Positions 6,575 through 22,650 of a DNA stretch of 64,000 nucleotides are shown here, piece by piece. Under the pieces are notes generated by a model. It was not told the origin of the DNA. It saw nothing but the letters and a program-made list of their open reading frames with translations, and made no database searches. Origin of the DNA: Brevibacillus laterosporus (GTDB lineage: Bacteria > Bacillota > Bacilli > Brevibacillales > Brevibacillaceae). The stretch covers positions 420,001 to 484,000 of the forward strand of contig CP033464.1 in assembly GCA_007833815.1 (NCBI GenBank), written 5' to 3'. Both the position numbers and the translations under genes were made by a program. Positions within the stretch are counted from its first letter, which is position 1. Every line of letters starts with the position of its first letter.

Positions 6575-6596
6575 TTTTTCTCCTTACAACAAACGT

Positions 6597-7613: not shown

Positions 7614-8648
7614 TTATAAGTCCCTCCTTTCTTTGCGGGCAAGGTATAGAAAGAAAGGAACTCCAACAAGTGCAACCATTACACCAATCGCTAACTCTCT
7701 AGGCGGATTAACTATCCTGGCACCTAAGTCAGCTAAAACTAACAAGATCGCCCCTAACAGAGCAGACATCGGGATGATGTAGCGATAATTGACCCCCACA
7801 AGCTTTCGTGATATATGCGGTATCACTAATCCTACAAATCCTATTGAACCCACAGCCGAAACGGATACTCCAGCAAGTAATACAGCAATCGCCATCCCAA
7901 GTAATCGAATCTGCTTTGTGTTGACCCCTAAATTATCCGCAACGTCGTCACCTAATGACAGCAACGAAACAGAGCGTCCCAACAGAATGGAACACAAAAT
8001 GGCAATCAAGATAATTGGCACTAGTATAGCAAGATGAGACCACCTCACCCCGGAAACACCGCCAGCATACCAAAAGGCCAAATCTTGACTCAAATCATAA
8101 TAAATGGCGATTCCTGAACTGAGTGAATGTAAGAACGCTGCAACTACCGCACCAGCGATCGTTAAGCGTAACGGTGTTAGCCCTCCAGCCGTCTGTGATC
8201 CCAGTAAAAAGATCAATAACGTACTAAGTACAGCGCCTAGAAACGATATGATCATTAAGCTGGTGTAAGACAAATGTGGCAAAAATGCAAAACTGAGTGC
8301 TACAACAAACGTTGCACCTGCATTAATTCCCAAAATTCCAGCATCAGCTAACGGATTACGGGTCACACCTTGCATCAATGCTCCTGCGACTGCAAACGCC
8401 GCTCCAACAACAGCAGCCCCAATCACACGTGGCAACCGCATTTCATGAACGATTTGATGTGTCGTCAGCTCTGGATGATAAGAAGTAACAGCCGCCCATA
8501 CCGTTCCCAGTGTCAAATCTTTTGCACCAAACGAAATAGCGACAAACATAGAAACGATCAAACCAAGAAACGACAATATGAAAAACAACCCAACCAGAGA
8601 AATGCTCCGTCTTGCTGTAGTAGTTTTTACAATAGAGTTATTCAACAA
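7614..8648 (-). CDS. Iron-siderophore ABC permease (FecCD family), first subunit
   Basis: Permease of about 344 residues with repeated hydrophobic segments, MRLPRVIGAAVVGAAFAVAG, the NPLADAGILGINAGA loop and the coupling segment GFVGLVIPHISRKLVG. The frame is open back to a GTG at 8693, but that region has a poor ribosome site. AGGAG lies eight bases before a TTG at 8648, which I take as the start (the next codon is also TTG). First gene of the iron operon; expression is expected to be iron-repressed through the upstream Fur-like box. Confidence 0.9.
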   Translation of the reverse strand: MLNNSIVKTTTARRSISLVGLFFILSFLGLIVSMFVAISFGAKDLTLGTVWAAVTSYHPELTTHQIVHEMRLPRVIGAAVVGAAFAVAGALMQGVTRNPLADAGILGINAGATFVVALSFAFLPHLSYTSLMIISFLGAVLSTLLIFLLGSQTAGGLTPLRLTIAGAVVAAFLHSLSSGIAIYYDLSQDLAFWYAGGVSGVRWSHLAILVPIILIAILCSILLGRSVSLLSLGDDVADNLGVNTKQIRLLGMAIAVLLAGVSVSAVGSIGFVGLVIPHISRKLVGVNYRYIIPMSALLGAILLVLADLGARIVNPPRELAIGVMVALVGVPFFLYLARKERRDL

Positions 8649-8707
8649 AATACCTACTCCTGAACAAATTCTTGTTTGAAATGAAAGTACCACTATCTAT
8701 CCTTTAA

Positions 8708-8728
8708 TGAAAATGATAATTATTTTCA
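8708..8728 (-). promoter_or_regulatory. Fur-box-like operator of the siderophore operon
   Basis: A near-palindrome, TGAAAATGATAATTATTTTC followed by A, contains the GATAAT core and TGA..TCA ends of Fur boxes. It lies about 60 bases upstream of the first permease start. Confidence 0.75.
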
Positions 8729-8802
8729 GTTGTGATTATAGCTTGAGTCTTTATGAAAAATCAAGGAAAAATGTAACCACCATCAATTATTTTATTTTTT
8801 TG

Positions 8803-8833
8803 AAAAAAGAAAAAACCACCTCAGAGGGTGGTG
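8803..8833 (-). terminator. Terminator of the envelope TCS operon
   Basis: On the minus strand CCACC / GGTGG stem with a six-base loop, followed by TTTTTTCTTTTTT, 30 bases after the kinase stop. Confidence 0.85.
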
Positions 8834-8864
8834 AACTTGCTATGGTTAGCATAGAAAATCTATC

Positions 8865-10262
8865 TCAATCAGCTCTATAATCATTTGCCAATGGTAATGT
8901 AAAGAAAAACGCAATAACCTCATGCTCTTCACGTACTCCAAATGATACATGGTGTTTCTGCAAAATGGTTTGAACAATAGATAATCCCAATCCGGTTCCA
9001 CTCAAATTCTTATTTCTGGAACTCTCAATCACATAAAAAGGTTGCCATATTTTTCCCGAATACGTGCTATCCCAATGCTCAATACCGTTTTTTATGCAGA
9101 ACATCAAATGGTTGCCTTCTCTTTGAAGTGAGATCGCTATCCGTTTATTTTTGGTGTACTTAACTGCATTACTGATAAAATTATCAAGCACAATTTCAAT
9201 TTTCGCTCGATCCCCCACCACCAAAGTATTACTTAACCCACATTCTTCTACGGTAAGCATGAGATTTTTCTGTTGAATGGTAATCTGATACTTGTGTATG
9301 GTTTGCTCAAATAAAAGAGTGAAGTCAAAAGACTCCATCGTGAATGAGTCATTCTGTAGTTTGGACAGATTCAGCAACTTGTCTACAATCCCAGACATTT
9401 CATCCGCTTGCTTTTTAATAACATCGACAAACGTACCATCATCTAGCCCATCCTTGATTCCCGTAGAGTACGCTTTGATCAGCGCAATGGGTGTTTTTAA
9501 TTCGTGGGAAATGTCCGAAATAAATATACGCAAGTTTTGATTTTTTTCTTCCAATGCTTCCAGCGCCTCTTTTAACTTGTCACTCATCATATTAATACTT
9601 TCGGCCAAACTCTCTATTTCATCACCAGTCTGAATCTCGGATTTTTGAAAAGACAAATGAGAGATATCCTCTGCCGTTTGTCGTAACTGGGTCAGTGGAC
9701 GTACAATTTGTCTGGCAATGAGCCATGACAACCCGATTGTCAGTAAAAGTGTTCCTATCGCTAAATACAAGTTAAATTCGTTAACCATTTGAATAAATGC
9801 ACTTGAATGGGCAACAGAGTCACCGATAACAAACAATGTACCATTCTTATTTAAAAAGGTAACCAAAAAGCTGGTCTCTAGCTTCTCTTGGCTATAAATT
9901 TTACGAACTGTCTCATGCCTTTGTAATTTTTCGTAGCTCTCGTCTGTAATCCAGAATTTAGACAGAGTAATACCTTTTTTATTTAATTGGTCTCGTACCG
10001 AGCCATTTATCTCATTTACATCTGAACCAAAAGGTGCTTGCACAATTGTTACATTGTAATCATACTCTAGCTTCTCAACATCATTTTGTAATTGCTTTAT
10101 ATCCATTGCTTCCAGCCTCGAAGTAAGTTCTGCTAAATTAATCTTTTTCTGATGCAAAATATACTTCGGTAAAAAGAACGTATTAAGTAGAAAAGACAGC
10201 ACAAACACAAAACAAATAATACCTGATGTGCGTAAAAATAACTTTCGACTTAGCTTATTCAT
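8865..10262 (-). CDS. HAMP-domain sensor histidine kinase
   Basis: A 465-residue membrane kinase. One membrane segment lies near residues 10-33 and a second near 163-187. Between them is an external domain of about 130 residues. Then come a HAMP linker (ARQIVRPLTQLRQ), the phosphoacceptor histidine in ISHELKTPIALIKAY, the N box DNFISNAVKYT and the G box SGTGLGLSI. It overlaps the response regulator gene by eight bases and is the last gene of a unit with two cell-envelope genes. That suggests it senses a wall-active signal, somewhat like VanS-type kinases, but the ligand is unknown. Confidence 0.92.
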   Translation of the reverse strand: MNKLSRKLFLRTSGIICFVFVLSFLLNTFFLPKYILHQKKINLAELTSRLEAMDIKQLQNDVEKLEYDYNVTIVQAPFGSDVNEINGSVRDQLNKKGITLSKFWITDESYEKLQRHETVRKIYSQEKLETSFLVTFLNKNGTLFVIGDSVAHSSAFIQMVNEFNLYLAIGTLLLTIGLSWLIARQIVRPLTQLRQTAEDISHLSFQKSEIQTGDEIESLAESINMMSDKLKEALEALEEKNQNLRIFISDISHELKTPIALIKAYSTGIKDGLDDGTFVDVIKKQADEMSGIVDKLLNLSKLQNDSFTMESFDFTLLFEQTIHKYQITIQQKNLMLTVEECGLSNTLVVGDRAKIEIVLDNFISNAVKYTKNKRIAISLQREGNHLMFCIKNGIEHWDSTYSGKIWQPFYVIESSRNKNLSGTGLGLSIVQTILQKHHVSFGVREEHEVIAFFFTLPLANDYRAD

Positions 10263-10902
10263 GTCCTACGTCCAAACTATATCCGACGCCACGATGCGTC
10301 TTGATGAGTTGCTCCCCAATCTTTTCACGGAGCCTACGAATGTGTGTATCAACGGTTCGTTCTTCTCCAAAATAGTCAAATCCCCAGACCTGATCTAGTA
10401 ATGCTTTTCTCGACAAAATTTTGCCTCGGTGCGCAAGAAAGCATTTCATTAATTGAAACTCCTTATTGGTAGCCTCCAAGTCGATACCGTCCTTAAATAT
10501 TTTTCCTCCCTGCATGTCCACCCGCAATGGACCAATACGAATGCTATCCTCTATTTGCAGTAACTTTTTTGCTCGCAGCAATAAAATCCTCGGTTCAAAT
10601 GGCTTTCTTACATATTCATCGGCTCCCATTTCTAACGCCATCAGTTCGTCCTCATGCTCCCCTTTAGCAGTGAGCATTAATACTTTGGCTGTATGGTGCT
10701 TTTTAATCTCTTTACACACCTCAAGACCACTAACCTTTGGCATCATCCAATCAAGCACGGCTAAATCTATCTTTTGATTATAGAACACAGCTAAGGCTTC
10801 CTCACCATCTTGGGCTGTAAACGTCTGAAATCCCTCTTTTTCAAAATAGAGCCGTATAATTCTCAGCATGTCTAGATCATCATCTGCAAGTAATATATTC
10901 AT
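10255..10902 (-). CDS. OmpR/PhoB-family response regulator
   Basis: A 215-residue DNA-binding regulator. The receiver domain has acidic residues at D7-D9, the phosphoacceptor D51 in LAVLDWMMP and the lysine in VRKPF. The winged-helix output domain ends with ERTVDTHIRRLREKIG and THRGVGYSL. It is paired with the downstream kinase (eight-base overlap) and lies 22 bases after the MurG-like gene. A good AAGGAG site precedes its ATG. It probably controls this operon and other envelope genes. Confidence 0.93.
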   Translation of the reverse strand: MNILLADDDLDMLRIIRLYFEKEGFQTFTAQDGEEALAVFYNQKIDLAVLDWMMPKVSGLEVCKEIKKHHTAKVLMLTAKGEHEDELMALEMGADEYVRKPFEPRILLLRAKKLLQIEDSIRIGPLRVDMQGGKIFKDGIDLEATNKEFQLMKCFLAHRGKILSRKALLDQVWGFDYFGEERTVDTHIRRLREKIGEQLIKTHRGVGYSLDVGHE

Positions 10903-10924
10903 AGATACTCCTTGTTTCCATTAT

Positions 10925-12034
10925 CTATTTAATCAATGGGCCCGAATCTATCATTTTATGATTACGTTTATTCTTATCGAGACCCCTGATTAATTCCATA
11001 ACCTTCTCCACAGCTTTTCCAGAATCGTCGGTTTTCATCTGTTCGATATATTTTTCACGATTTTGATGCAAATGATAGACACGCTCCAAAAATGTTTGGT
11101 TTGTCATATTCTCTTGCAAGAGGATTTCTGCATATCCCGCATTTCGAAAATTTTCAGCGTTCCTTATCTGTCCATTTCTCGTACCTCCACTTGTATGTGG
11201 GATTAGTAGCATAGGCTTTTGCAATGCTAGTATTTCATGTATAGAGTTGGAACCAGCCCGGGACACCACTAAATCAGCAGCTGCCAACAAATCTGGCAAT
11301 ACATGTGTAACATATTCAAATTGTTGATAACCCTCTTGTTGGAAGGAAGCATCTATCTTTCCTGGTCCGCATAAATGAATCACTTGAAAGTTTATCAATA
11401 GATCAGATAAAACCGCTCGAACAACCTGATTAATTTTCTCTGCACCTTGACTGCCTCCCATCACAAGAAGGACGGGCTTTTCATTGGTAAAGTTACAGAA
11501 GGAAATTCCCTGCTCTCGATATCCTGATTTAAGCGTATCTTTAATTATAGCACCTACATGAGTAATCTTCTTTGAAGGGTCATTCTTTTTCGTTTCTAAG
11601 AAGGTTGTACATACCTTGGTCGCAAAAGGATAAGATATCCGATTAGCAAGTCCCATATGTACATCAGGTTCATGAATAATAGTAGCAACTCCATTCATTT
11701 TTGCCCCAAGGACTACAGGCACAGATACAAATCCCCCTAGTGAAAATACCACATCAGGTTTCACCTTTCTAATCAGGAGATACGCTTGAAGGATTCCTTT
11801 TATGACTTTGTACACATCGGTAACATTCTTCCAATCGAAATATCGCCGTAGCTTTCCTGTCGATACGCCATGATAGTGAACCTGCTCGTATTCTGCTACA
11901 AGTCTTTTCTCAATGCCATTTTCTGATCCAATATAATGAATCTCATAATTTTCTTCGGTACATGTAGGGATCAGCACTAGGTTTGCCGTAACATGACCGG
12001 CTGATCCGCCTCCTGTAAATATGATTTTTTTCAT
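10925..12034 (-). CDS. MurG-like UDP-GlcNAc:undecaprenyl-PP-sugar glycosyltransferase paralogue
   Basis: A GT28-family glycosyltransferase of 369 residues. It shows the N-terminal glycine loop GGGSAGHV (usual MurG has GGTGGHV), VVFSLGGFVSVPV, the HEPDVHMGLANR segment where MurG normally has HEQN, GGSQGAEKIN and the donor-site SRAGSNSIHE. These changes and its place beside a sugar-nucleotide dehydratase and a two-component system argue that it is not the housekeeping MurG of the division cluster but a second copy. It may act on lipid II or another lipid-linked sugar. It follows the dehydratase gene by one base. Confidence 0.85.
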   Translation of the reverse strand: MKKIIFTGGGSAGHVTANLVLIPTCTEENYEIHYIGSENGIEKRLVAEYEQVHYHGVSTGKLRRYFDWKNVTDVYKVIKGILQAYLLIRKVKPDVVFSLGGFVSVPVVLGAKMNGVATIIHEPDVHMGLANRISYPFATKVCTTFLETKKNDPSKKITHVGAIIKDTLKSGYREQGISFCNFTNEKPVLLVMGGSQGAEKINQVVRAVLSDLLINFQVIHLCGPGKIDASFQQEGYQQFEYVTHVLPDLLAAADLVVSRAGSNSIHEILALQKPMLLIPHTSGGTRNGQIRNAENFRNAGYAEILLQENMTNQTFLERVYHLHQNREKYIEQMKTDDSGKAVEKVMELIRGLDKNKRNHKMIDSGPLIK

Positions 12035-12035
12035 C

Positions 12036-13013
12036 CTAAGACCCCCCTGTCTCTAGCATCTGTCTAACCTCATCTTTAGTCATAAGGGAGCTTTCAGAAT
12101 GGTAACTATCAAAACGAACCGGTTCGCAAGTAGAATAATGCTCCTGTAGCTCTGGAGATTGATAGGTTGGTAAAATCACAAAATAGTTTTGATTGAAATG
12201 AATGGCTCTGTGACTTTCACATTCCGAAATGAGTGTTTCATTAAGCTTTTCTCCAGGACGTAAACCCAAGTGTTTTATTTTAATATCATCTCTACCTGAT
12301 TCCTCAATGAATACCTGTGCCATGTCACTGATCTTGCAGGATGGCATGTGTAATACAAACGTCTCGCCCCCTTTACTTTTCTCTGTAGCAATAAACAACA
12401 TCTGAATGGCTTCTTCTAGGCGCAAGAAAAACCTAGTCATTTGCATGTCCGTCACACCAAGGTCCAAGCCTTGCTTAATCTGATTTTTAAAGATGGGGAT
12501 GACACTTCCCGTTGAACCTAAAACATTCCCACTTCTCACACAAACAAATCTAGTAGCAGTGTCTCGCCTATTCGCTTGAATCATGAGACGTTCCCCGATC
12601 GCTTTTGTCATCCCATATGTACTTGAGGGATTTGAAGCTTTATCGGTTGATACGTAAATTACTTTTTTTATCTTATTAGTAATGGCAGCCTCAATAACGT
12701 TTTGCGTGCCAATCACATTTGTTTTTATCGCTATTTCAGGCTGATTTTCACAGATGGGTACATGCTTTAAAGCCGCTAAATGATAAATATGATCGACACC
12801 TTGGCAAGCCCGTATTATCTCTTGTTTGTCACGAATATCACCAATGATGAACTGTAGGCGTTGATCATTAAAATGCTGACTCATCTCTACTTGAAGAGCT
12901 TCATTGCGAGAGTAGATACGAATTTCTTTTGGATGTTTAGTTAGTAATTGAGTAACTAGTTCCCATCCCCAAGAACCGGTACCTCCCGTGATTAAGATTG
13001 TCTCGTTGTTCAT
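12036..13013 (-). CDS. NAD-dependent UDP-sugar dehydratase/epimerase, CapD/PseB-like
   Basis: An extended short-chain dehydrogenase of 325 residues. It begins with the nucleotide-binding ITGGTGSWGWELV, has the GDIRDKQ turn, a VSTDKA segment and the active-site YGMTK (YxxxK). The EIRIYSRNE stretch matches the UDP-GlcNAc 4,6-dehydratase group (PseB/FlaA1/CapD). It would make a 4-keto-6-deoxy sugar nucleotide or epimerise UDP-GlcNAc for a surface glycan. It is the first gene of the four-gene envelope operon; GGAGGG lies upstream of the start. Confidence 0.87.
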   Translation of the reverse strand: MNNETILITGGTGSWGWELVTQLLTKHPKEIRIYSRNEALQVEMSQHFNDQRLQFIIGDIRDKQEIIRACQGVDHIYHLAALKHVPICENQPEIAIKTNVIGTQNVIEAAITNKIKKVIYVSTDKASNPSSTYGMTKAIGERLMIQANRRDTATRFVCVRSGNVLGSTGSVIPIFKNQIKQGLDLGVTDMQMTRFFLRLEEAIQMLFIATEKSKGGETFVLHMPSCKISDMAQVFIEESGRDDIKIKHLGLRPGEKLNETLISECESHRAIHFNQNYFVILPTYQSPELQEHYSTCEPVRFDSYHSESSLMTKDEVRQMLETGGS

Positions 13014-13136
13014 TTAAATTCCCTCCAGCACTTTGTGCGAGCTACTAGGTATATAGTAGTTCTGAAGTGTTACGCCAGTGTGACAAAAGGAAATTTAAAG
13101 AGACTACATAATCCTATAGCCTGTATTCGCCCACTA

Positions 13137-13161
13137 AAAAAAGCCACCCTATCAGGTGACT
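13137..13161 (-). terminator. Minus-strand terminator
   Basis: GTCACC / GGTGGC stem (one G-T pair) followed by TTTTTTT on the minus strand. No obvious gene lies immediately upstream, so it may end a small RNA or a lost gene. Confidence 0.6.
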
Positions 13162-13562
13162 TTCCTTTTATAAAATCATTTTTTTATATAGATTGTAGAC
13201 GTTATATTCTATAGGAAATTAATACCTATCTATGATACGATTCATCGCGCTAATTGATACGGCAAGTTTTCTAAAACAAAAAGACGGGTCCTCCCGACTA
13301 CTTATCACGATTCCCGAACTATGGAAAACTTACTGTTACTTGTGATAAGGTTCACCGTACCGTATCTAAGAACATAGTTGGTTATGATCATAAGGTAGTT
13401 ATTACTGTTTGAAACTATAATACTAATGAAGAATACCCTTGAATCCTCAATATTTCAAGAATCATGGGCATTCTTATTAGTTATTAATCTTCTATTTAAG
13501 GAGAGGCTACACTGTGTTGATTAATCTTAAGCTAACACACAGGGCTTATTTAACACAATAAA

Positions 13563-13595
13563 AACGTCCGAATTATGGGTATTCGGACGTTACAA
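13563..13595 (-). terminator. Terminator downstream of the 165-aa secreted protein gene
   Basis: Perfect 11-base stem AACGTCCGAAT / ATTCGGACGTT with a seven-base loop; the minus strand continues TTATTG. Confidence 0.75.
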
Positions 13596-13752
13596 CGTTA
13601 AGTTTACACATATGAAATTATTGGGAACCTATTTATTCAATTATTTTATTCTTCCAAGTGTAAAACCTAGTCTAATTCATCTCGTTCATTAGCAATACGA
13701 ACCGAGAATCTACCTTGCTTGACCCGAAGTAAAGCTCCAAGGTTTCTTATTC

Positions 13753-14250
13753 TTATAGTTCTCTTTTGGTTTCTGCAATTTTTACTGATACTTTACCAGA
13801 CATATCTTCCACTGATGTCACCGAAACTGTATGCAGACCAGTTTTCCAAGGAGAACTACCTTTCTCATCAAAAGGTTTACCAGGTTTTGCCACTCCGCCC
13901 ATAACCTCTTTACCTTTCGAATCAGTAACTGTGACATTGATATCAGTATCTCCTGTGTTCATCACATACACTTTAACCCATCCAAACCCAGCAGGGATAT
14001 CAAATTCAAAATCATCCTGAGTTCTGTTGCCAATCTTCTGTCCGTCGACCGGCTTTCTGGTTTTTAAAGGTTCAAAGCGACCACCTTTTGCTCCGCTTAC
14101 TGCTTTAGATTCACCACTTTGGTGGGATACCGTAGCTTGACTTTCCTTAGTTTTCTCTAAAACATTAGGAGTTGTAGCAGAAACAGATAATGGTATTACA
14201 GCCACTAATGCAAAAGCGGTAAGGAAAGAAACTATTCTATTTTTTTTCAT
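13753..14250 (-). CDS. Secreted protein of unknown function
   Basis: A 165-residue protein with a clear export signal: KKNR, then a hydrophobic stretch to about residue 22, and a likely cleavage after VSA. The mature part opens with a charged, low-complexity region and continues in a compact beta-rich domain (WVKVYVMNTGDTDINVTVTD). It has no cysteines. No family comes to mind. The ribosome site (GAAAGAAGG) precedes the ATG. It lies downstream of a quorum-sensing pair and a Spo0E-like frame on the same strand, so its expression might be linked to them, though terminators lie between. Confidence 0.75.
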   Translation of the reverse strand: MKKNRIVSFLTAFALVAVIPLSVSATTPNVLEKTKESQATVSHQSGESKAVSGAKGGRFEPLKTRKPVDGQKIGNRTQDDFEFDIPAGFGWVKVYVMNTGDTDINVTVTDSKGKEVMGGVAKPGKPFDEKGSSPWKTGLHTVSVTSVEDMSGKVSVKIAETKREL

Positions 14251-14440
14251 AATTATAAACCTTCTTTCTGAATATTAGAAAACATTTACATAATATCCTT
14301 TTTCATCATAAATCTTATTTGGAAAATTTTCACTATTATCTCTAATAATAATCCTAGCTGTCATGAATAGCTGAAAACGGCTAATTAATATATCCCTTTA
14401 GGGTTCCGTAGGTTTCCGTACAGCGTATTCTTATCGACAT

Positions 14441-14593
14441 CTAGTGTTTAAGCTTTTGAATAGCTACAATGTATTCATCTAGTTGTTGACTCATCAGCAA
14501 TACTTCTGGATGTAAAAATGAACCTTTTTTGAAATACCGATGCTCTAACTCTTTGCGAAGGATTTCTATAAGCTTCTGTAAATCGTTTTCCAA
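14441..14593 (-). CDS. Spo0E-like aspartyl-phosphate phosphatase, start uncertain
   Basis: A short frame of 50 residues from a TTG at 14593 to a TAG at 14441. It carries the Spo0E family pattern: a first helix (LIEILRKELEHRYFKKGSF) and a second helix with MSQQLDEYIVAI, matching the SQxLDxxI signature. Spo0E-type proteins dephosphorylate Spo0A~P and so delay sporulation. The frame is open upstream to a TGA near 14659 but has no ATG, and the TTG has no good ribosome site, so the gene may be decayed or may start unusually. Two hairpins (14640-14668 and 14671-14709) lie in its leader. Confidence 0.55.
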   Translation of the reverse strand: MENDLQKLIEILRKELEHRYFKKGSFLHPEVLLMSQQLDEYIVAIQKLKH

Positions 14594-14639
14594 TTTAAAA
14601 TTTTCTGTTTTCTTATCCTGTAAATCAGTGGTAGAATAT

Positions 14640-14709
14640 CCTTGAGTAACTTTTTTTGTTGCTCAAGGTGGGGGCGTTCCGATTAGTTTAGCGACATTGG
14701 GAACGCCCC
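14640..14709. repeat. Two adjacent hairpins upstream of the Spo0E-like frame
   Basis: A seven-base stem CCTTGAG / CTCAAGG is followed two bases later by a perfect ten-base stem GGGGCGTTCC / GGAACGCCCC. Read on the plus strand the second could be a terminator (TTTGTATT follows). Read on the minus strand both would fold in the leader of the Spo0E-like frame. Confidence 0.55.
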
Positions 14710-14858
14710 TTTGTATTATCAAAAAGCATACACTAATAATAATACCTTCTTTCTTCCTCTTATGTATTATTTTACCACGTGTTGCAGGAGTTACTAAAAA
14801 TAGCTAGAGATGAAACATTCTTCAAAATCCGACATAATACTACATAATTTTCACACAC

Positions 14859-14885
14859 AAAAAAAGCGCTAGTTTTAATAGCGCC
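14859..14885 (-). terminator. Terminator of the receptor/pro-peptide unit
   Basis: GCGCTA / TAGCGC stem followed by TTTTTTT on the minus strand, 18 bases after the stop of the 41-aa peptide gene. Confidence 0.88.
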
Positions 14886-14903
14886 TTAAAAAGATTAGCT
14901 GAA

Positions 14904-15029
14904 TCAGTGACCTGGATCGTACACATACTGAGTTATTTTAGCTTCTGCAACATGAGAGAAAGAATTAAAAGAGCCTAAGGATGTTACCATTGCCAAAGTC
15001 ATGAAAACTGTTATAAAAGCTTTTCTCAT
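14904..15029 (-). CDS. Secreted signalling pro-peptide (Phr/NprX/AimP-like), 41 aa
   Basis: A 41-residue frame starts at an ATG at 15029, seven bases after a strong AGGAGG, and stops at 14904. It has a classic export signal: MRK, a hydrophobic core, and SHVAEA as the end of the leader. The remaining tail is KITQYVYDPGH, from which a short mature peptide could be cut. It begins 16 bases after the stop of the RRNPP-type receptor gene and is followed by a strong terminator. This is the arrangement of receptor and signal genes in Rap-Phr, NprR-NprX and arbitrium-like systems. Mature sequence is inferred, not seen. Confidence 0.8.
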   Translation of the reverse strand: MRKAFITVFMTLAMVTSLGSFNSFSHVAEAKITQYVYDPGH

Positions 15030-15045
15030 CTTAATCCCTCCTTTG

Positions 15046-16089
15046 CTAACTAATCAGCTTATTCTTTGTAATTCCATTATATACCTTTTGGAGCTTATGC
15101 AACATCTGTAAATCAAGATTTTTGTTTTTCGATATATAAAAATCAAATATGGTTTCCATACATTGTATAATATCTTGAAAAGCATTGATTTTTCCATATA
15201 CAGACATGCTATTAATATAGCTATCTAACCCTTCTTGGAAAGCTTCAACTAACATTTGATAAGTACCTTTAAATTGATAATATAATCCCATTGAATAATA
15301 TTTATATGGTGTTTTCGCATCGAGTATTAAAAACTTATCTTCTTGAGCAATTAATTCTGCAATGGAATCAAATTTTCCCATTTGCAAATATAATTCAATT
15401 AACTCATTTACTGCATGAATTTTTGAGTCCTTACTGGTGTTTTGTAGGCAATCCATTAACAATGGGATAGCTGTATCGTACTCCTTTTTCTTCGCCTTTA
15501 CTAATGCCTGAGTCAAACTAGCTGATTCATTTATGAAATGATAATTAAATGTTTTATAAACAGTGAGATGGCTCTCAAGTTCATCATATAATCCTAAAAA
15601 ATAGAGCGAATTAATCATCGCTAAATACGCTCTTGCTTTTAGCTCCGTATTTTCCTTTTCTAAATTAAGACCCATTGTACATAGCTCAACGCACTCTGGG
15701 TATTTTTTTATATTATGAGCATGAAGCGACATTCTGAAAAGGAATCTTATTTTCTCTTTATCAGACAGAAAATCAACGTAGTGTAAGACCTCTTCTCCTA
15801 CTTTAAACGATTCTTCCAAGCGCTTCAAATCTTCTCTCTCGATGAGGTATTTTTGACATAACCCTTTAGCTGTGTATTTTGGCACCCCATGGGTTCTAGC
15901 GTACTTAACAATCACATTGTAGAGGGTTAATCTCACTTCAATATTTTCGAAGGTATCGGCAATTTCAAATAAATCTTCTAGTAACTCATAGGTGTCTTTA
16001 TTTGAGCTTTCAAGGAACTTTACTGCCACTTTTTCCATTAGAGAAAGGTTAGAAATTTCTGCAACCTCCATTAAAAAGTCATGTAACAT
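15046..16089 (-). CDS. TPR domain of an RRNPP-type quorum-sensing receptor (3' part of a frameshifted gene)
   Basis: This frame encodes a helical, repeat-rich domain of about 347 residues, with TPR-like helices throughout (CVELCTMGLNLEKENTELKA and others). The open frame extends further upstream as NIPYEEIIEWYIKAEHRYG, which is the natural continuation of the HTH domain encoded in another frame just upstream. Together the two parts give about 428 residues, close to the length of NprR. RRNPP receptors bind an imported short peptide through the TPR domain and thereby change DNA or protein binding. The internal ATG at 16089 has no good ribosome site, so this part alone is probably not made unless the frame is restored. 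Confidence 0.8.
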   Translation of the reverse strand: MLHDFLMEVAEISNLSLMEKVAVKFLESSNKDTYELLEDLFEIADTFENIEVRLTLYNVIVKYARTHGVPKYTAKGLCQKYLIEREDLKRLEESFKVGEEVLHYVDFLSDKEKIRFLFRMSLHAHNIKKYPECVELCTMGLNLEKENTELKARAYLAMINSLYFLGLYDELESHLTVYKTFNYHFINESASLTQALVKAKKKEYDTAIPLLMDCLQNTSKDSKIHAVNELIELYLQMGKFDSIAELIAQEDKFLILDAKTPYKYYSMGLYYQFKGTYQMLVEAFQEGLDSYINSMSVYGKINAFQDIIQCMETIFDFYISKNKNLDLQMLHKLQKVYNGITKNKLIS

Positions 16090-16145
16090 CCCATATCTGT
16101 GTTCTGCTTTAATATACCATTCAATAATCTCTTCATAGGGGATGT

Positions 16146-16331
16146 TTAAAACATCTCGATTGGTTTTAAAGTTCTTAGCTCAGGGCGTTTTGTTTCACCT
16201 GATTCAATCTTAGATACTATCCCTTTACTAACCCCTGTTCTCCTAGATAATTCTGATAACCTTATTCCCAGTTCTTCTCTCCTTTGTTTTATCAATTCTC
16301 CGATTGTTGTAAAAGTTAGACTGTCTGCCAT
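16146..16331 (-). pseudogene. HTH (XRE) domain of the RRNPP-type receptor, cut off by a frameshift
   Basis: The first 56 residues form an XRE-type helix-turn-helix: ELIKQRREELGIRLSELSRR, then TGVSKGIVSKIESGETKRPE. After LRTLKPI the frame is lost and stops two codons later. The TPR frame picks up at the same point with RDVLNIPYEEII. A single-base change between about 16150 and 16165 explains this. There is no long homopolymer there, so I favour a true mutation over a sequencing slip, but reads would decide. As it stands the receptor is predicted to be inactive or a short DNA-binding fragment. Confidence 0.8.
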
Positions 16332-16737
16332 ACAAATCCCCTTCCTTTATTTGTAAATAGTAGCATTGCAAGCTTTATTATTTTTTAACTCAATCCTAAC
16401 TTTATTGTATAATTTTGTAAATAACAACAAAAAATAATAGATTGATTTATTTTCTTTTATGATAGGAATTTTGAAAGTTGAGGAAAAAAGGTGCTTAATT
16501 ATAAAAATTCAAGCACATTAAAATAGAGTTCTTATATGAATCTCTATTTTAATGTATGTTTTATCAAAAGATATCAGGGGAGAGGAGTATGAACGTTATG
16601 ATGGCATCTATTATCGTAACGTGAATTTTTCATCTAGGGTGGCGCTATGGAAGTGTTCAGCCCCATATTGGAACATATACATGCTGAATGGATGTAAACT
16701 ATCCCCCCTTTCAAGAGCTATCCAGTCATCACGAAAC
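16332..16737. other. Intergenic region with a long AT-rich palindrome
   Basis: The promoter of the receptor gene should lie at its left end. A perfect 14-base inverted repeat (ACATTAAAATAGAG with its complement) spans 16515-16555 with a 13-base loop. A plus-strand frame here has low-quality composition and I do not accept it as a gene. Confidence 0.5.
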
Positions 16738-16764
16738 AGAAAAAGCCATCCATGTAGGATAGCT
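16738..16764 (-). terminator. Terminator of the oligopeptide transporter operon
   Basis: GCTATCC / GGATGGC stem with a five-base loop followed by TTTTTCTGTTT on the minus strand, about 55 bases after the stop of the 60-aa gene. Confidence 0.75.
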
Positions 16765-16817
16765 TACTTTATAAACAAATTCTCAACCGCTCTCTTTGTC
16801 TGTCTTCTTCTGTTGGT

Positions 16818-17000
16818 TTACTGTAACGTAACACCATATCCGCTGATTTGATTGGAAAAGTCAAAGTCATCATTCAGTTCTTGAAAAGCACTGATATCCC
16901 CCTTTTGCAAGGCTTCAAACAGCTCTTGATCTGTCACACCTTTTCCGCGCAGTACTTCAATCATCAGTGCTTCATTTTGTGAAAGTTTTACTAGAGACAT
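16818..17000 (-). CDS. Small acidic peptide gene at the end of the opp operon
   Basis: A 60-residue frame with a good ribosome site (GGGAGG, ten bases before ATG), starting 26 bases after the stop of the OppF gene. The product begins MSLVKLSQNEALMIEVLRGK, continues in an acidic helix (TDQELFEALQKGD) and ends with SNQISGYGVTLQ. It has no signal peptide, membrane segment or cysteine. The leader-plus-tail layout recalls precursor peptides, but no modification enzyme is nearby. I do not recognise a family. Its place in the operon suggests a link to the transporter or to its peptide cargo. Confidence 0.65.
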   Translation of the reverse strand: MSLVKLSQNEALMIEVLRGKGVTDQELFEALQKGDISAFQELNDDFDFSNQISGYGVTLQ

Positions 17001-17026: not shown

Positions 17027-18007
17027 TTATTCTCCAAACAAATGACAGGCAACCTGGTGGCCTGCGCTAATATTTACTAGTTTCGGCTCCTCTTCTGCAC
17101 AACGTGATGATGCATAGGGACATCTAGACTGGAACTTACAGCCTCGAATTGTTGACAATGGGCTTGGAATATCCCCTTCAGTAATGATACGTTTTTGATT
17201 CCGTAGCTTAGGATCAGCTATTGGGATAGAGGAAAGAAGTGCTTGCGTATATGGATGTGCTGGATGATCATATAATTCATTGCTTTGGGCGACTTCTACG
17301 ATTTGACCTAGATACATCACACCAATGCGATCTGAGATATGACGTACCATGGATAAATCGTGGGCAATAAATAAGTAGGTCAGCCCTAATTCCTTTTGCA
17401 AATCCTCAAGCATGTTTACCACTTGGGCTTGAACAGATACGTCCAGCGCAGAAATTGGCTCATCGCACATGATAAACTCTGGTTTCACCGCTAGAGATCG
17501 TGCAATGCTGACTCGCTGTCTCTGTCCTCCACTGAATTCGTACGGATAACGATCCAGATGTTCTTTTTTTAGTCCTACACGCTCCAACAGAGCCTGGATG
17601 ATTTCCCTCCGCTCTTTTTCTCCAAGCGAATCATGGATATTCATTGGTTCACTAATAAGCTCAAAAACAGTCATCCCAGGATTTAAGGAAGAATACGGGT
17701 CCTGAAAAATGGTTTGCATTCGTTTACGAAATGGTTTGAGTTGCTGTTCACTCATGTTCGCTAAATCATGTCCATCAAACAATATTTTTCCATCAGTCAC
17801 ATCAAAAAGTCGAACAATACTGCGGCCCGTTGTTGATTTACCGCACCCCGACTCTCCAACCAAGCCAAATGTTTCGCCTTTATAAACCTCAAAGCTGACG
17901 TCATCGACAGCCTTCACATATTTCGTTGTCCCACCAAAAAAACCTTTATGGATTGGATAATATTTTTTGAGATGCTTTACATCAACTAAAATGTCCTTTG
18001 GCTTCAT
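17027..18007 (-). CDS. Oligopeptide ABC transporter ATP-binding protein (OppF-like)
   Basis: ABC ATPase of about 326 residues. It has the Walker A GLVGESGCGKST, the Q loop with IFQDPYSSLNPGMTV, the signature FSGGQRQRVSIARSLA, Walker B EFIMCDEPISALD and the switch histidine in IAHDLS. The C-terminal oligopeptide/dipeptide extension has CKFQSRCPYASSRC, a cysteine cluster typical of OppD/OppF. I start at the ATG at 18007 with GGGGGG seven bases before it; the frame is open to 18022. It overlaps the OppD gene by 26 bases. Confidence 0.93.
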   Translation of the reverse strand: MKPKDILVDVKHLKKYYPIHKGFFGGTTKYVKAVDDVSFEVYKGETFGLVGESGCGKSTTGRSIVRLFDVTDGKILFDGHDLANMSEQQLKPFRKRMQTIFQDPYSSLNPGMTVFELISEPMNIHDSLGEKERREIIQALLERVGLKKEHLDRYPYEFSGGQRQRVSIARSLAVKPEFIMCDEPISALDVSVQAQVVNMLEDLQKELGLTYLFIAHDLSMVRHISDRIGVMYLGQIVEVAQSNELYDHPAHPYTQALLSSIPIADPKLRNQKRIITEGDIPSPLSTIRGCKFQSRCPYASSRCAEEEPKLVNISAGHQVACHLFGE

Positions 18008-18992
18008 TCCTTTTCCCCCCATCTCCTTCTCCTAGCCAACATTTCATTCGTTGACCTGAACCTCTTTCATAAGAAGGCGGAATTTCGCTAAGACATTTAT
18101 CCATCATATGAGGGCAACGCTCTGCAAATGGACAGCCTTTCGTAGGGTTTAATAAGCTAGGTGGTGTTCCTTCAATGGGAATAAGTCTTTCCTTATTTCC
18201 ATTATGGTGTTTAGGCAAGGAACGCAAAAGTCCTTGTGTGTATGGGTGTTGTGGGCGATAAAAGATATCTTCTACCTTCCCCTCTTCCATAACCATTCCA
18301 CTATACATGACTATTACTCTTGTACATACTTGAGCTACTACACCCAAATCATGTGTGATCAGCATGATAGCTGTATCTGATTGGGTAGCCAGTTCTTTTA
18401 TCAAATCAAGAATCTGAGCCTGAATGGTTACATCTAATGCAGTGGTAGGCTCGTCAGCAATCAATAGCTCCGGTTCACATGAGAGCGCCATCGCAATCAT
18501 CACTCTCTGCCTCATCCCGCCACTGAATTCATGCGGGTATTGATTGAATCGCTCTTCAGGAGAAGATATCCCCACCTGTTTTAATAACTCGATCGCTTTT
18601 TGTTTAGCCCCTGCCTTGCTTACCTTTTGATGCCTCATGATTACTTCCGTAAGTTGGCGTCCAATTTTATAAACAGGATTAAGAGAAGTCATCGGATCTT
18701 GAAAGATCATAGCGATACGATTTCCTCGAATCGCTTTTCGTTCTTTTTCTGTAGCTACTAACAGATCTTTTTCACCAAACTTGATCTCTCCTCCTACAAT
18801 TTTCCCCGGTTGTGCAATCAGAGAGAGAATTGACTTGGCGGTAACACTTTTTCCACTACCTGATTCTCCTACAATCCCAATAACTTCACCTTTTTGTACG
18901 AAAAAACTGACTCCTCTAACAGCTTGCACCTCTCCAGCGCGGGTGAAGAAGGACGTTCTTAAATTCTTCACATCCAATAAAACTTCCGTCAT
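17982..18992 (-). CDS. Oligopeptide ABC transporter ATP-binding protein (OppD-like)
   Basis: ABC ATPase of about 336 residues with Walker A GIVGESGSGKSV, IFQDPMTSLNPVYKI, signature FSGGMRQRVMIAMALS, Walker B ELLIADEPTTALD and ITHDLG. The C-terminal extension carries GCPFAERCPHMMDKC. The ATG at 18992 has GGAG eight bases before it; an upstream GTG at 19001 is less likely. It pairs with the OppF-like ATPase to power uptake of peptides. Confidence 0.93.
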   Translation of the reverse strand: MTEVLLDVKNLRTSFFTRAGEVQAVRGVSFFVQKGEVIGIVGESGSGKSVTAKSILSLIAQPGKIVGGEIKFGEKDLLVATEKERKAIRGNRIAMIFQDPMTSLNPVYKIGRQLTEVIMRHQKVSKAGAKQKAIELLKQVGISSPEERFNQYPHEFSGGMRQRVMIAMALSCEPELLIADEPTTALDVTIQAQILDLIKELATQSDTAIMLITHDLGVVAQVCTRVIVMYSGMVMEEGKVEDIFYRPQHPYTQGLLRSLPKHHNGNKERLIPIEGTPPSLLNPTKGCPFAERCPHMMDKCLSEIPPSYERGSGQRMKCWLGEGDGGKRNEAKGHFS

Positions 18993-19037
18993 ATGCCTCA
19001 CTCCAAGCTAATCATCTTCATTCGCTATGCAGATTTC

Positions 19038-19883
19038 TTATTCGTCATTTGCTTTTGGTTCAAAGGCTACTCGTAAAACATCTCCCAAAACATTAAAGCT
19101 CATTACCGTAAGCAGAATAAACAAGCCAGGAAAAAGAGCTAGATGGGGCGCTTCTCCTATATATCCTTGTGCGTTGTTTAGCATACTACCCCACGATGAG
19201 TTGGGCTGTTGAATACCAAGCCCGAGAAAACTAAGGGCCGACTCCATTAAGATCGCAGACGCAATATTGATAGTCGCAGTCACAATAATAGTAGAAGAGA
19301 TGCTTGGAATGATGTGATAGAAAATAATTTTAAATGAGCTTTGCCCAGACACCTTGGCGTACAATACATATTCACGTTCCTTTACCGACAGTGTTTCAGC
19401 CCGTACAAGTCTAGCTACATTCATCCATGTTAAAAGTCCAATGATAATAATGACAGTCTGAATACTAGGCTTTACATACACACTAAGGATGAGCATTAAT
19501 AGAAAGGATGGGATCGACATCAATATTTCTACAGCTCGCATAATGATGCTATCAACCATTCCTCCAAAATATCCACTAATCGCCCCAATTGTTGTTCCAA
19601 GTCCAGTAGCAATGATCATGGCGGCAAATCCCACCATCAAAGAAACTCGCCCACCATGAAGGGCCCTAGAAAAATAATCTCTTCCAAAATCATCTGTTCC
19701 GAAAAAGTGTGCTTGACTCAATGGTTGTAGTCTATCCTGAATGACAATTTGATTAGGGTCATACGGGGCAAGAACAGCAAATAAGGAACCAAGTGCAAAA
19801 ACAATCAAAATAATCACTGAAATGAAGCCAAGCCTATTAGAAAACAACTCTACTTTTACGTTATTCCATCTTCTTCTATTCAT
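19038..19883 (-). CDS. Oligopeptide ABC transporter permease (OppC-like)
   Basis: A 281-residue inner-membrane permease. The N-terminal OppC segment contains a membrane span followed by the FGTDDFGRDYFSRALHGGR loop typical of this subunit. The BPD transport domain has about five further spans, with the coupling loop around EYVLYAKVSGQSSFKIIFYH. It follows the OppB-like gene by four bases. Confidence 0.92.
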   Translation of the reverse strand: MNRRRWNNVKVELFSNRLGFISVIILIVFALGSLFAVLAPYDPNQIVIQDRLQPLSQAHFFGTDDFGRDYFSRALHGGRVSLMVGFAAMIIATGLGTTIGAISGYFGGMVDSIIMRAVEILMSIPSFLLMLILSVYVKPSIQTVIIIIGLLTWMNVARLVRAETLSVKEREYVLYAKVSGQSSFKIIFYHIIPSISSTIIVTATINIASAILMESALSFLGLGIQQPNSSWGSMLNNAQGYIGEAPHLALFPGLFILLTVMSFNVLGDVLRVAFEPKANDE

Positions 19884-19887
19884 CTTG

Positions 19888-20838
19888 CTACCTCCATGCC
19901 CTGATTCGAGGATCCACTACGCTGTAAAGTATATCTGCCAGCAAATTTCCGATGATAAGCAAGACAGATGTAAACATGGTAATCGCCATAATGATCGGAT
20001 AATCAAATCCAAAGGCAGCCTTAATACTAAGTGAGCCTATTCCTGGCCAAGAAAATACCGTTTCTGTAATAATCGCGCCAGCAATCAAATCAGGTAGAGA
20101 CATCCCTAGAAGGGTAATAATCGGTAAAAGTACATTTTTCAACACATGGTTAAAAAGAATCTGCCATCGTGTAGAGCCATAGGCATATTGAATTTGTACG
20201 TAATCTTCCCTCAATTGGCCAATTGTGTTGGAACGAATATATCTCATATAAACAGATAATTGGCCAAAACTAAGGACCAAACAGGGAAGTATACCGTGCT
20301 TGATAACATCCCAGGTGGAAGTAACCCCAATCGTTCTTATTCCCATGCTGGGGAGAAGATGCAGTTTAATGGCAAAAAAGTAGATTAAAAGCATAGCAAA
20401 CCAAAAAGCTGGAATCGAAATTCCCACATACGAGAACATGTTTAAAATATTATCAATCCACTTATTTCTATTTGCTCCCGCTATCAATCCTAATGGGATA
20501 GCCAACATAACGGAGAGAAGTATAGAAGCTCCCATTAATCCAGCCGTTGCCGGTAACCGTTCCATTACCTGTGTAAGCACAGGTCGGTGATTGATGAGTG
20601 AATAACCGAAATCACCCATAAACACATTCTTTAACCAGATAAAATACTGAATATATCCAGGACGATCCAATCCCAAGCTATGCCGAATCCGTTCTATATC
20701 CTCTAGACTCATTTTTGGAGTAATGAAAGCTTGCAGAGGATCACCAGGAGCCAGCTTTATCAAAGCAAAGCAAACAATTGAAATAAAAAATAACATCGGA
20801 ATAGATTGAAGAATTCGTTTTGCTATGAATGAAAACAT
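19888..20838 (-). CDS. Oligopeptide ABC transporter permease (OppB-like)
   Basis: A 316-residue permease with six membrane spans. The N terminus has the family pattern KRILQSIPMLFFISIVCF followed by LAPGDPLQ. The coupling region reads EDYVQIQYAYGSTRWQILFN. Its start is preceded by AGGAGG. A hairpin separates it from the binding-protein gene, which probably lowers its expression relative to that gene. Confidence 0.93.
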   Translation of the reverse strand: MFSFIAKRILQSIPMLFFISIVCFALIKLAPGDPLQAFITPKMSLEDIERIRHSLGLDRPGYIQYFIWLKNVFMGDFGYSLINHRPVLTQVMERLPATAGLMGASILLSVMLAIPLGLIAGANRNKWIDNILNMFSYVGISIPAFWFAMLLIYFFAIKLHLLPSMGIRTIGVTSTWDVIKHGILPCLVLSFGQLSVYMRYIRSNTIGQLREDYVQIQYAYGSTRWQILFNHVLKNVLLPIITLLGMSLPDLIAGAIITETVFSWPGIGSLSIKAAFGFDYPIIMAITMFTSVLLIIGNLLADILYSVVDPRIRAWR

Positions 20839-20871
20839 GAACTTCCTCCTAAAACAGCTTCTTGGAATGAA

Positions 20872-20897
20872 AATAAGCTGATCCTCATCAGCTTATT
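20872..20897 (-). terminator. Intra-operon hairpin (attenuating terminator) between oppA- and oppB-like genes
   Basis: Perfect ten-base stem AATAAGCTGA / TCAGCTTATT with a six-base loop and TTC after it. The weak T run fits partial termination or mRNA protection after the highly expressed binding-protein gene. Confidence 0.7.
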
Positions 20898-20933
20898 TTC
20901 ACCCTTGTTCCTAATATAAGAACTATCTTCTTG

Positions 20934-22532
20934 TTATTGCTCGTAAATTTTGGACAAATCCTCAAACATGGTAACTGGCTTCGTAACAGCTTCTTGTAAA
21001 CCACCAAATCTTTTATCAATCGCTATAATGGATTTAGGATAAGCGATTGGATAGATAGGTACATCGTCTGCTACTGTTTGTTGAATTTTTTTGTACATGT
21101 CAGCGCGTTTTGAAGTATCAATCTCTACCGCAGCTTTGGACCATAGCTCGTCAAACTCTTTGTTATTGTAATGGGAATAGTTGAAAGCTTCTGTACTGAC
21201 AAATAGAGATTTGTAAGCATCCGGTTCATACCCCATAATGTAGCCACCAAATGATAAATCGTAATCTTTATTTTTCATGTCCTGAGATTTGTTTGAAAAT
21301 GCTGCTGGATCTAACGGCTGTAGCTCAATTTCAATTCCTACATCTTTCAATTTCTGCTGTAGATAGAGTGCCTGACTGGTCTGTGGCTTGTTATTATTCA
21401 CATATGCCAGTCTGAGCTTCAAATTATTTACTCCTGCTTTTTTCAGCAAATCTTTAGCTTTTTCCACGTTATAATCGTACGTGGTTACCTCTTTTGTTTG
21501 GTAAAGAGCATCAGGAGTAAGTAGAGAATGAGCAGGTTCAGCATAATCAAGAGACGAGTAAGCTGCATGAATTAATTCATTTTTATCAATAGCATAGGCA
21601 ATCGCTTGGCGAACCTCTTTTTTCTTCAGTACGTCGATATTTAGATTAAACGCCATGTAAACCAATCGGCCTTCGTTATATTTAATTAAGGTAAACATCT
21701 GCATATCATTCATCTTGTTATAGTCTTGTGGATCGATAAGCTTCATTTGAATTTCGCCATTTTGCATAGCCAAATTAGCTGCGTTGTTATCTTTAGTAAT
21801 ACGATAGGTAACAGTGTCCAAATAGGATTTTCCTGCAAAATAGTTATCAAAGCGTTCTAAGGTTACATACTCTCCCGGTTTGTATTCCTTAAATTTGAAC
21901 GGACCGGAACCTACTGGACTGAAGTTTTTATCGCTTTTTTCAATATCCTCTACATTTTCAAAGATATGTTTAGGGATTGGTGATACCTGAACCAAAGCCC
22001 CTTCAAAGGCTGCACTAACTTGCGGAAGTACAAAGTCTACGGTAGTATCATCTACTTTTTTCACTTGGATCGGCTTGCCATCTAATACAAACAAGCTTCG
22101 TTGTGGACTGTGTTGCTTTTCATCTAAGATGCTAGTAAGAGTAAATACGACGTCGTTAGCAGTCAACTTTTTCCCGTCATGCCAAGTTAGGTTATCTCTG
22201 AGTTTTAGTGTATAGGTTAAAAAGTCCTTGGATTGCGTTGAGCTCTCTGCTAATACAAATGTTTTCTTTCCATCATTAATTGTAAATAAGGGCGCAAACA
22301 AGGATTGATTAATGGTTAAAGTCACACGGTCCCCAGCATAGTTCGGGTTAAGAGCACTTGGATCATCTCCAACTGCTATTACCAAGCTTCCTCCACTTTT
22401 AGGCTTACCACTCTCTGCTACAGATTGGCTTTGATCTCCCTCTTGCTGAGGTGCTGTACTTTCGCTAGCGCAACCGCTAAGAAATAACAGTATACTCATC
22501 AAAATAGAAATAATTCCAAAACGCTTAGTCAT
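20934..22532 (-). CDS. Oligopeptide-binding lipoprotein (OppA/DppA-like)
   Basis: Extracellular solute-binding protein of family 5, about 532 residues. The N terminus is a lipoprotein signal with lipobox LSGC, so the mature protein is anchored at that cysteine. Family signatures follow: LRDNLTWHDGKKLTANDVVF, PVGSGPFKFKEYKPGEY and KEVRQAIAYAIDKNELI. The ATG at 22532 has GGAGG seven bases before it and is preferred over an open GTG at 22538. First gene of the five-gene transporter operon. Such systems import peptides, including signalling peptides for RRNPP receptors like the one encoded nearby; that link is inference. Confidence 0.93.
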   Translation of the reverse strand: MTKRFGIISILMSILLFLSGCASESTAPQQEGDQSQSVAESGKPKSGGSLVIAVGDDPSALNPNYAGDRVTLTINQSLFAPLFTINDGKKTFVLAESSTQSKDFLTYTLKLRDNLTWHDGKKLTANDVVFTLTSILDEKQHSPQRSLFVLDGKPIQVKKVDDTTVDFVLPQVSAAFEGALVQVSPIPKHIFENVEDIEKSDKNFSPVGSGPFKFKEYKPGEYVTLERFDNYFAGKSYLDTVTYRITKDNNAANLAMQNGEIQMKLIDPQDYNKMNDMQMFTLIKYNEGRLVYMAFNLNIDVLKKKEVRQAIAYAIDKNELIHAAYSSLDYAEPAHSLLTPDALYQTKEVTTYDYNVEKAKDLLKKAGVNNLKLRLAYVNNNKPQTSQALYLQQKLKDVGIEIELQPLDPAAFSNKSQDMKNKDYDLSFGGYIMGYEPDAYKSLFVSTEAFNYSHYNNKEFDELWSKAAVEIDTSKRADMYKKIQQTVADDVPIYPIAYPKSIIAIDKRFGGLQEAVTKPVTMFEDLSKIYEQ

Positions 22533-22650
22533 GTCCACTCCTCCGATTTTTTATCCTCACTTCGGGAATAACATCAAGTTGTTTTCTAGTATAGCACCTT
22601 CGCCAAAAAAGGCAAGTAATCCGATCGGAATTAAAATATCACATAAAACA

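Follow-up and report, generated by a model that had tools for sequence, protein, structure and literature searches.

The 64,000-nt stretch of Brevibacillus laterosporus DNA analysed here (contig CP033464.1, positions 420,001 to 484,000; hereafter the window) carries on its minus strand, at 14904-16331, a peptide-signalling cassette with a helix-turn-helix (HTH) frame, a tetratricopeptide repeat (TPR) frame, a 41-aa exported peptide and, next to it, a terminator. The cassette probably belongs to RRNPPA subfamily 08 and consists of a receptor, a pro-peptide and a Spo0E-like gene in a circuit like that of Alo13, with the receptor of this copy lost. This reading is carried by the gene order and its conservation, the family tail of the peptide, the many paralogues, the adjacency of the Spo0E-like gene and the loss of the receptor frame; the workings of the circuit are modelled on AloR13 of Paenibacillus polymyxa (PMC7425212, available part). 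A first-pass annotation, made from the letters of the stretch, had described a split receptor with its own secreted peptide. That observation is real, but the account was supported in part only, having passed over the Spo0E-like gene, some 20 paralogues and the cassette-free site in relatives. The locus is of an ordinary kind, and its interest lies in being a decaying member of a much expanded family.

Receptor, pro-peptide and family tail

In transcription order, the HTH piece is followed by the TPR frame (open from ~16179 to 15046), the pro-peptide, a terminator-like hairpin and the Spo0E-like gene (Table 1). The HTH frame ends at a stop codon at 16146-16148, and the two frames overlap throughout the frame-change zone. 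A gap of 16 bases separates the TPR frame from the pro-peptide, whose ATG is preceded by the ribosome-binding site CAAAGGAGGGATTAAG. These elements were found as the first-pass annotation had described them, the broken receptor frame included. The HTH piece matched HTH_3 in Pfam, and the TPR frame alone gave weak repeat matches, all below the cut-off. Among 47 relatives selected out of 72 uninterrupted ones, HTH_3 was present in all 47 and TPR_2 in 16; the HTH and C-terminal TPR regions stand in one receptor in these relatives and are split in the window copy. The modelled TPR part forms an all-helical repeat superhelix (mean predicted local distance difference test score, pLDDT, 87.1).

Related receptors were compared at 83 places, retained from 107 loci after removal of 12 duplicates and of partial matches, all with a match that begins where the piece begins and reaches residue 300 or beyond; they are a sample, many further family matches lying outside the set. 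At 78 of the 83 the receptor frame continues upstream of the match without a stop for 50 codons or more (all but the window copy L003, L004, L074, L075 and L095), and the sister L005 is 428 aa long, an uninterrupted receptor of the kind that had been predicted. Neither the two frames as separate genes in homologues nor the absence of a conserved peptide frame, the outcomes named beforehand as refuting, was seen. In the search of the family of genome G042, the receptor matches L113, L114 and L116, from three genomes, had one internal TAA each, and further matches also contained stops.

At 77 of the 83 places a reading frame downstream of the receptor ends in the family tail, and the strict pattern [DN]PG[HYFW] or [DN]PQG was matched at 67, both the loose and the strict pattern having been composed after the peptides had been inspected. 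As a control, the open reading frames (ORFs) of 28 aa or more that lie upstream or on the opposite strand at the same loci were examined, and 1 of 1977 had the tail. No tailed peptide was found behind the receptor at six places (L021, L036, L093, L097, L098 and L099). An RRNPP-type receptor with its own adjacent, short exported pro-peptide is supported by these relatives, and the residues ahead of the tail are variable, both as anticipated. In the same genome, the AEAKITQYVYDPGH of the window is accompanied by the sister tail AEAKIIQYVYDPGH, where the receptor is broken, and by AEAKIIQYVYDPGY and SKPNVIQYVYDPGF, where the receptors are uninterrupted. The sister peptides QYVYDPGY and QYVYDPGF differ from the window peptide at the final residue of the last eight. 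The Paenibacillus tyrfis peptide (L002) reads VDVDPGH. At 30 loci from the family of genome G042, taken as Paenibacillaceae, no peptide ending in DPG plus one residue was found; tails there include GEPGGW and GGIFPW, and no peptide was found at 4 of the 30. The tail of the window peptide, YDPGH, contains the DPG motif, as would the mature peptide predicted from it. No pheromone tail reading DPGH, DPGY or DPGW was found in print among the literature matches listed. The suggestion that the signal is of a new kind is not supported, as the DPG motif is already printed for subfamily 08 (PMC12700828, available part).

Table 1 Features of the cassette and its surroundings (window coordinates)
Feature	Position	Strand	Remarks
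Extra segment, absent at the corresponding site of three relatives	13177..16849	.	
165-aa protein, signal-like N-terminus, no Pfam family	13753..14250	-	39% identical protein next to the sister cassette at 1.21 Mb
Spo0E-like gene, probable circuit output	14441..14593	-	PF09388, 1.1e-11; listed from TTG, true start uncertain
Two successive hairpins (14671-14709, 14640-14668), leader of the Spo0E-like gene	14640..14709	-	
Putative -10-like element TAAAATAATAC	14763..14775	-	Kept in aligned copies
Conserved upstream box ~TTTTGTCG.AATTT....ACGTTTC, candidate receptor operator	14810..14839	-	16 copies aligned; putative function
Terminator-like hairpin past the peptide gene, 9 pairs	14863..14887	-	
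41-aa pro-peptide with a hydrophobic N-terminus and the tail AEAKITQYVYDPGH	14904..15029	-	
Receptor C-terminal TPR-like piece, presumed peptide-binding part	15046..16158	-	First ATG 16089
Frame-change zone: HTH frame left, TPR frame open	16146..16179	-	Intact homologues cross in one frame
Receptor N-terminal HTH piece, 61 aa	16146..16331	-	Stop after frame change; HTH_3, 3.1e-10

The Spo0E-like gene and its leader

The genome has 24 Spo0E-like places, of which twelve are found on the same strand as a receptor place and at most 1 kb downstream of it (expected: 0.04), a count that uses all 21 receptor places, broken ones included. A Spo0E-like motif was present in the downstream DNA (0.6-1.5 kb) of 26 of the 83 places. 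Among the 136 pairs formed by 17 of these 26 cassettes, median identity was 70% for a 45-residue core of Spo0E and 45.5% for the receptor, and Spo0E was more alike than the receptor in 125 pairs. Such a pattern is consistent with recombination in which the output is retained and the sensor exchanged; slower evolution of Spo0E could also account for it. Seven of eight phage or viral-contig loci had, with the receptor, both a peptide with a DPG tail and a Spo0E-like frame: L104 (phage SecTim467), L105 (phage Sundance), L108-L110 (L109 without an HTH), L180 and L185. The eighth locus, in phage Jenst (L106), has no more than a truncated receptor. L181-L184 were left out of the count as repeats of the same contigs (L182 has the length of Sundance).

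The conserved two-hairpin leader before spo0E, together with outputs more alike than sensors, was less expected. Five terminator-like sites were found in 14400-16900, compared with 1.0 in shuffled sequences. The spacer between peptide and spo0E was strongly conserved in 16 of the 26 cassettes, which were selected for likeness, and contains the terminator-like hairpin, the upstream box, the -10-like element, a purine tract resembling a ribosome-binding site and the two hairpins. The window leader folds with -43.8 kcal/mol (z -4.63). Across 25 leaders (window 14640-14762, L004, L005, L009-L014, L018, L026, L029, L069-L071, L075, L076, L079, L080, L082, L096, L105 and L108-L110), 86.4% of cells were pairable, compared with 84.1% in shuffled and at most 47.8% in slid alignments. 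Double-sided changes were found in 13 cells (3.9 in shuffles), and further pair types showed no excess (12 versus 12.1). RNAalifold retained six pairs of hairpin 1 with a covariation term near nil, and Rfam gave no match in 14350-15100 up to E 1. Taken together, support for the two-hairpin structure is moderate.

When the spo0E frame is followed upstream, 13 of 19 copies share the position of the first stop. A similar stop is present in L016 and absent from L071, L073, L080, L104 and L105. The idea that the leader is translated as part of Spo0E was rejected, since the ratio of nonsynonymous to synonymous polymorphism (pN/pS) in twelve of the 13 copies was 0.85 in the leader frame and 0.34 in spo0E. 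Five copies (the window, L004, L005, L009 and L013) lack ATG or GTG at the start site of their relatives, and in these pN/pS was 0.18 in the spo0E core and 0.55 in the leader frame. The window gene has a TTG slightly past that site.

By analogy with AloR13, which raises a downstream spo0E-like gene that its peptide SHGRGG lowers (PMC7425212, available part), an intact receptor would activate the spo0E-like gene that lies downstream of it. The pro-peptide, once exported, would be trimmed to a short DPG-ended peptide, imported by an Opp permease and bound in the TPR groove of the receptor, switching spo0E off, so that sporulation could start at high density. With its receptor split after the HTH, most likely through a young loss of function, the window channel would send but have lost the ability to sense. 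Sister receptors whose own peptides are QYVYDPGY and QYVYDPGF could yet respond to the window peptide.

Paralogues, spread and genomic site

A search of the same genome with the TPR piece gave 25 matches at 21 places, neighbouring same-strand matches being counted as one and their sequences not joined. Fourteen places are intact (405-523 aa) and seven are broken: the window copy, a paralogue at 1.21 Mb, one place split by a transposase-like frame and four places with fragments, among which 796035, the weakest match (E 3.5e-5), is possibly no member of the set. The 1.21-Mb copy is the nearest paralogue (78% identical) and has an in-frame stop inside its HTH. In a sister receptor of this genome (L057:3300-4856), the interrupting transposase-like frame, called by eye, is 454 aa long. 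The window cassette is extra at its site and decaying like six other places of the genome.

Within the bacterial family, receptor matches were found in 29 of 40 genomes, own genome included; a sample of the class had them in 28 of 399 genomes, all from the same family (E 1e-10). For the family of G042, the numbers were 18 of 295 genomes and 2 of 19 genera (E 1e-5). Named relatives include one Brevibacillus metagenome-assembled genome, P. tyrfis, seven plasmid records and five phage records.

The extra segment is absent from three relatives. In G030, genes matching 5645-13013 adjoin the opp side, namely a 60-aa ORF (16818-17000) followed by 17027-22538, without the cassette; similarity ends at ~13176 and restarts at ~16850. 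In G029 and G031, the genes of 8865-13013 are also missing, and the DNA of 13044-13174 still lies beside the opp side, in two pieces in G029 and in one in G031. No 12-mer was common to the two border stretches compared, and no recombinase was recognised among the ORFs of the segment, judged by eye and for some by Pfam. An opp-type peptide permease operon (17027-22538) lies directly upstream of the cassette, with Pfam matches in two opp-side genes (ABC_tran with oligo_HPY, and SBP_bac_5). As the operon stands at the same place in the three cassette-less relatives, this adjacency may be accidental. Neither a phage gene nor the phage lysis-lysogeny locus expected for AimR was found among the segment and flank proteins scanned or compared, which cover part of the flanking genes. 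The 165-aa protein behind spo0E also has a counterpart at the nearest sister cassette (L056:7763-8245).

In Brevibacillus, sensor-signal cassettes might be shuffled before one homogenised output (the structured leader with its spo0E-like gene) and swapped with phages and plasmids. Copies with a dead receptor and a live peptide, the window copy among them, would serve as send-only signals to sister receptors, with the last residue distinguishing one signal from another, and the two hairpins would set the translation of spo0E by bringing a remote ribosome-binding site up to a weak start codon; we regard this combined scheme as a long shot. Social selection for extra signalling systems, as proposed in PMC4771773 (available part), is a possible reason for the accumulation of such cassettes. 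One genome can here be seen, in its sequence, multiplying, moving and losing peptide-signalling channels with a common probable output, sporulation control. The sister set QYVYDPG[H/Y/F] lends itself to testing how many residues determine the specificity of a signal and whether senders that lack a receptor affect their kin.

Alternatives and comparison with known systems

Several points weigh against a subfamily 08 cassette with a lost receptor. The top structural matches of the TPR part were LGN and other non-receptor TPR proteins, so the fold is no proof of peptide sensing. The motif search over 0.6-1.5 kb of downstream DNA found no Spo0E-like gene at 57 of the 83 places, so Spo0E is not a universal output. 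The literature search found no subfamily 08 experiment among the matches listed, the name itself having been queried in part only. pBRLA33 carries two HTH-TPR receptors with peptides, a relative of the window receptor (tail DYDPGY) and a second type (L111:11580-12992), in which an overlapping frame ends in HGVGG and the HTH-TPR nature was recognised by eye. The pair agrees with a published count in which AloR and cluster 8 are represented by one system each; the HGVGG type is perhaps AloR proper, and we infer that the relative of the window receptor is the cluster-8 system. Finally, the break is known from the assembly alone, which makes an assembly error possible, and many dS values are close to saturation.

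The ratio of nonsynonymous to synonymous substitution rates (dN/dS) of the window TPR frame against its nearest paralogue was 0.185, within the 0.07-0.21 of 12 computable pairs among six uninterrupted copies (3 of 15 pairs not being computable). The break is therefore either young or false. Young decay of one cassette is most likely, with assembly error as its main rival. A sequencing or assembly error over an intact receptor seems rather unlikely: it would agree with the constraint on the TPR frame and with a peptide and Spo0E-like gene that look functional, but 16146-16179 contains no single-base run longer than 4 and decay is common in this genome, the nearest paralogue having its own in-frame stop and another place a transposase-like insertion. 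That both pieces work separately, the HTH part as a stub and the TPR part as a protein of its own begun at the internal ATG (16089) in the manner of the HTH-less Rap proteins, is very unlikely; the TPR frame is still open and constrained, yet 78 of 83 relatives have one frame and no conserved split layout was seen. Fusion of the frames by programmed slippage is hardly credible. The heptamer T-TTA-AAA does lie in the HTH frame just ahead of the junction, from which a -1 step would reach the TPR frame, but the uninterrupted paralogue L007 has it at the same codons, where slippage would break the protein, and this candidate was rejected. Phase-like switching, raised in the first-pass annotation, was also discarded: the junction has no repeat tract, the repeats of the segment are two-copy or short only, and the nearest paralogue is broken by a different lesion.

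Membership in AloR-AloP proper appears improbable. The layout with a spo0E-like neighbour resembles Alo13, paralogues are many per genome, and Brevibacillus is listed among the hosts of AloR-like proteins (PMC7425212, available part). However, relatives of the window receptor occur in the 18 of 295 Paenibacillaceae genomes and 2 of 19 genera given above, whereas the HGVGG type (compare SHGRGG of AloP13) was found in 88 of 197 genomes taken as Paenibacillaceae and in 5 of 19 genera (E 1e-20). The two receptors had no significant blastp similarity (best E 0.067). AloR13 was sought through its printed primer, and the single hit in 197 genomes (2 mismatches) opens a 26-aa frame only; with at most one mismatch, 0 of 19 and 0 of 100 were hit in two genera.

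The cassette is thus probably to be assigned, from its sequence features, to RRNPPA subfamily 08, which we take from number and description to be cluster 8 of RRNPP_Detector, a predicted kind from Paenibacillaceae with DPG widespread in its peptides (PMC12700828 and PMC10075063, available parts). Both have an HTH and TPR receptor, a downstream exported pro-peptide and the DPG motif, and in the collections searched the family has the same range, Paenibacillaceae in the NCBI sense on chromosomes, plasmids and phages; the window differs in its split receptor. The available part of PMC12700828 places subfamily 08 as sister of AloR. AloR-AloP, with 16 loci in P. polymyxa (PMC7425212, available part), shares with the window the order of receptor, peptide and spo0E-like gene in Alo13 and the many paralogues per genome, but differs in its tail (SHGRGG versus DPGH) and in the distribution of relatives.

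The match to RRNPP systems proposed at first stands for the type; for NprR-NprX and arbitrium it amounts to fold similarity. NprR was a fold match to the modelled TPR part, but NprR, AimR, Rap and PlcR were not named among 53 PDB sequence matches at E 0.01, nor among the best 60 of 192 at E 1, and the window tail differs from those of NprR-NprX and Rap-Phr. AimR-AimP shares a weak fold match (spAimR) and the DPG motif, said to be widespread in the peptides of both AimR and subfamily 08 (PMC12700828, available part). Unlike AimR-AimP, the window cassette is chromosomal and next to a spo0E-like gene, and the Brevibacillus phage relatives of its receptor likewise lie beside spo0E-like genes. Spo0E and a neighbouring regulator have been reported for Brevibacillus phages (PMC4909266, available part).
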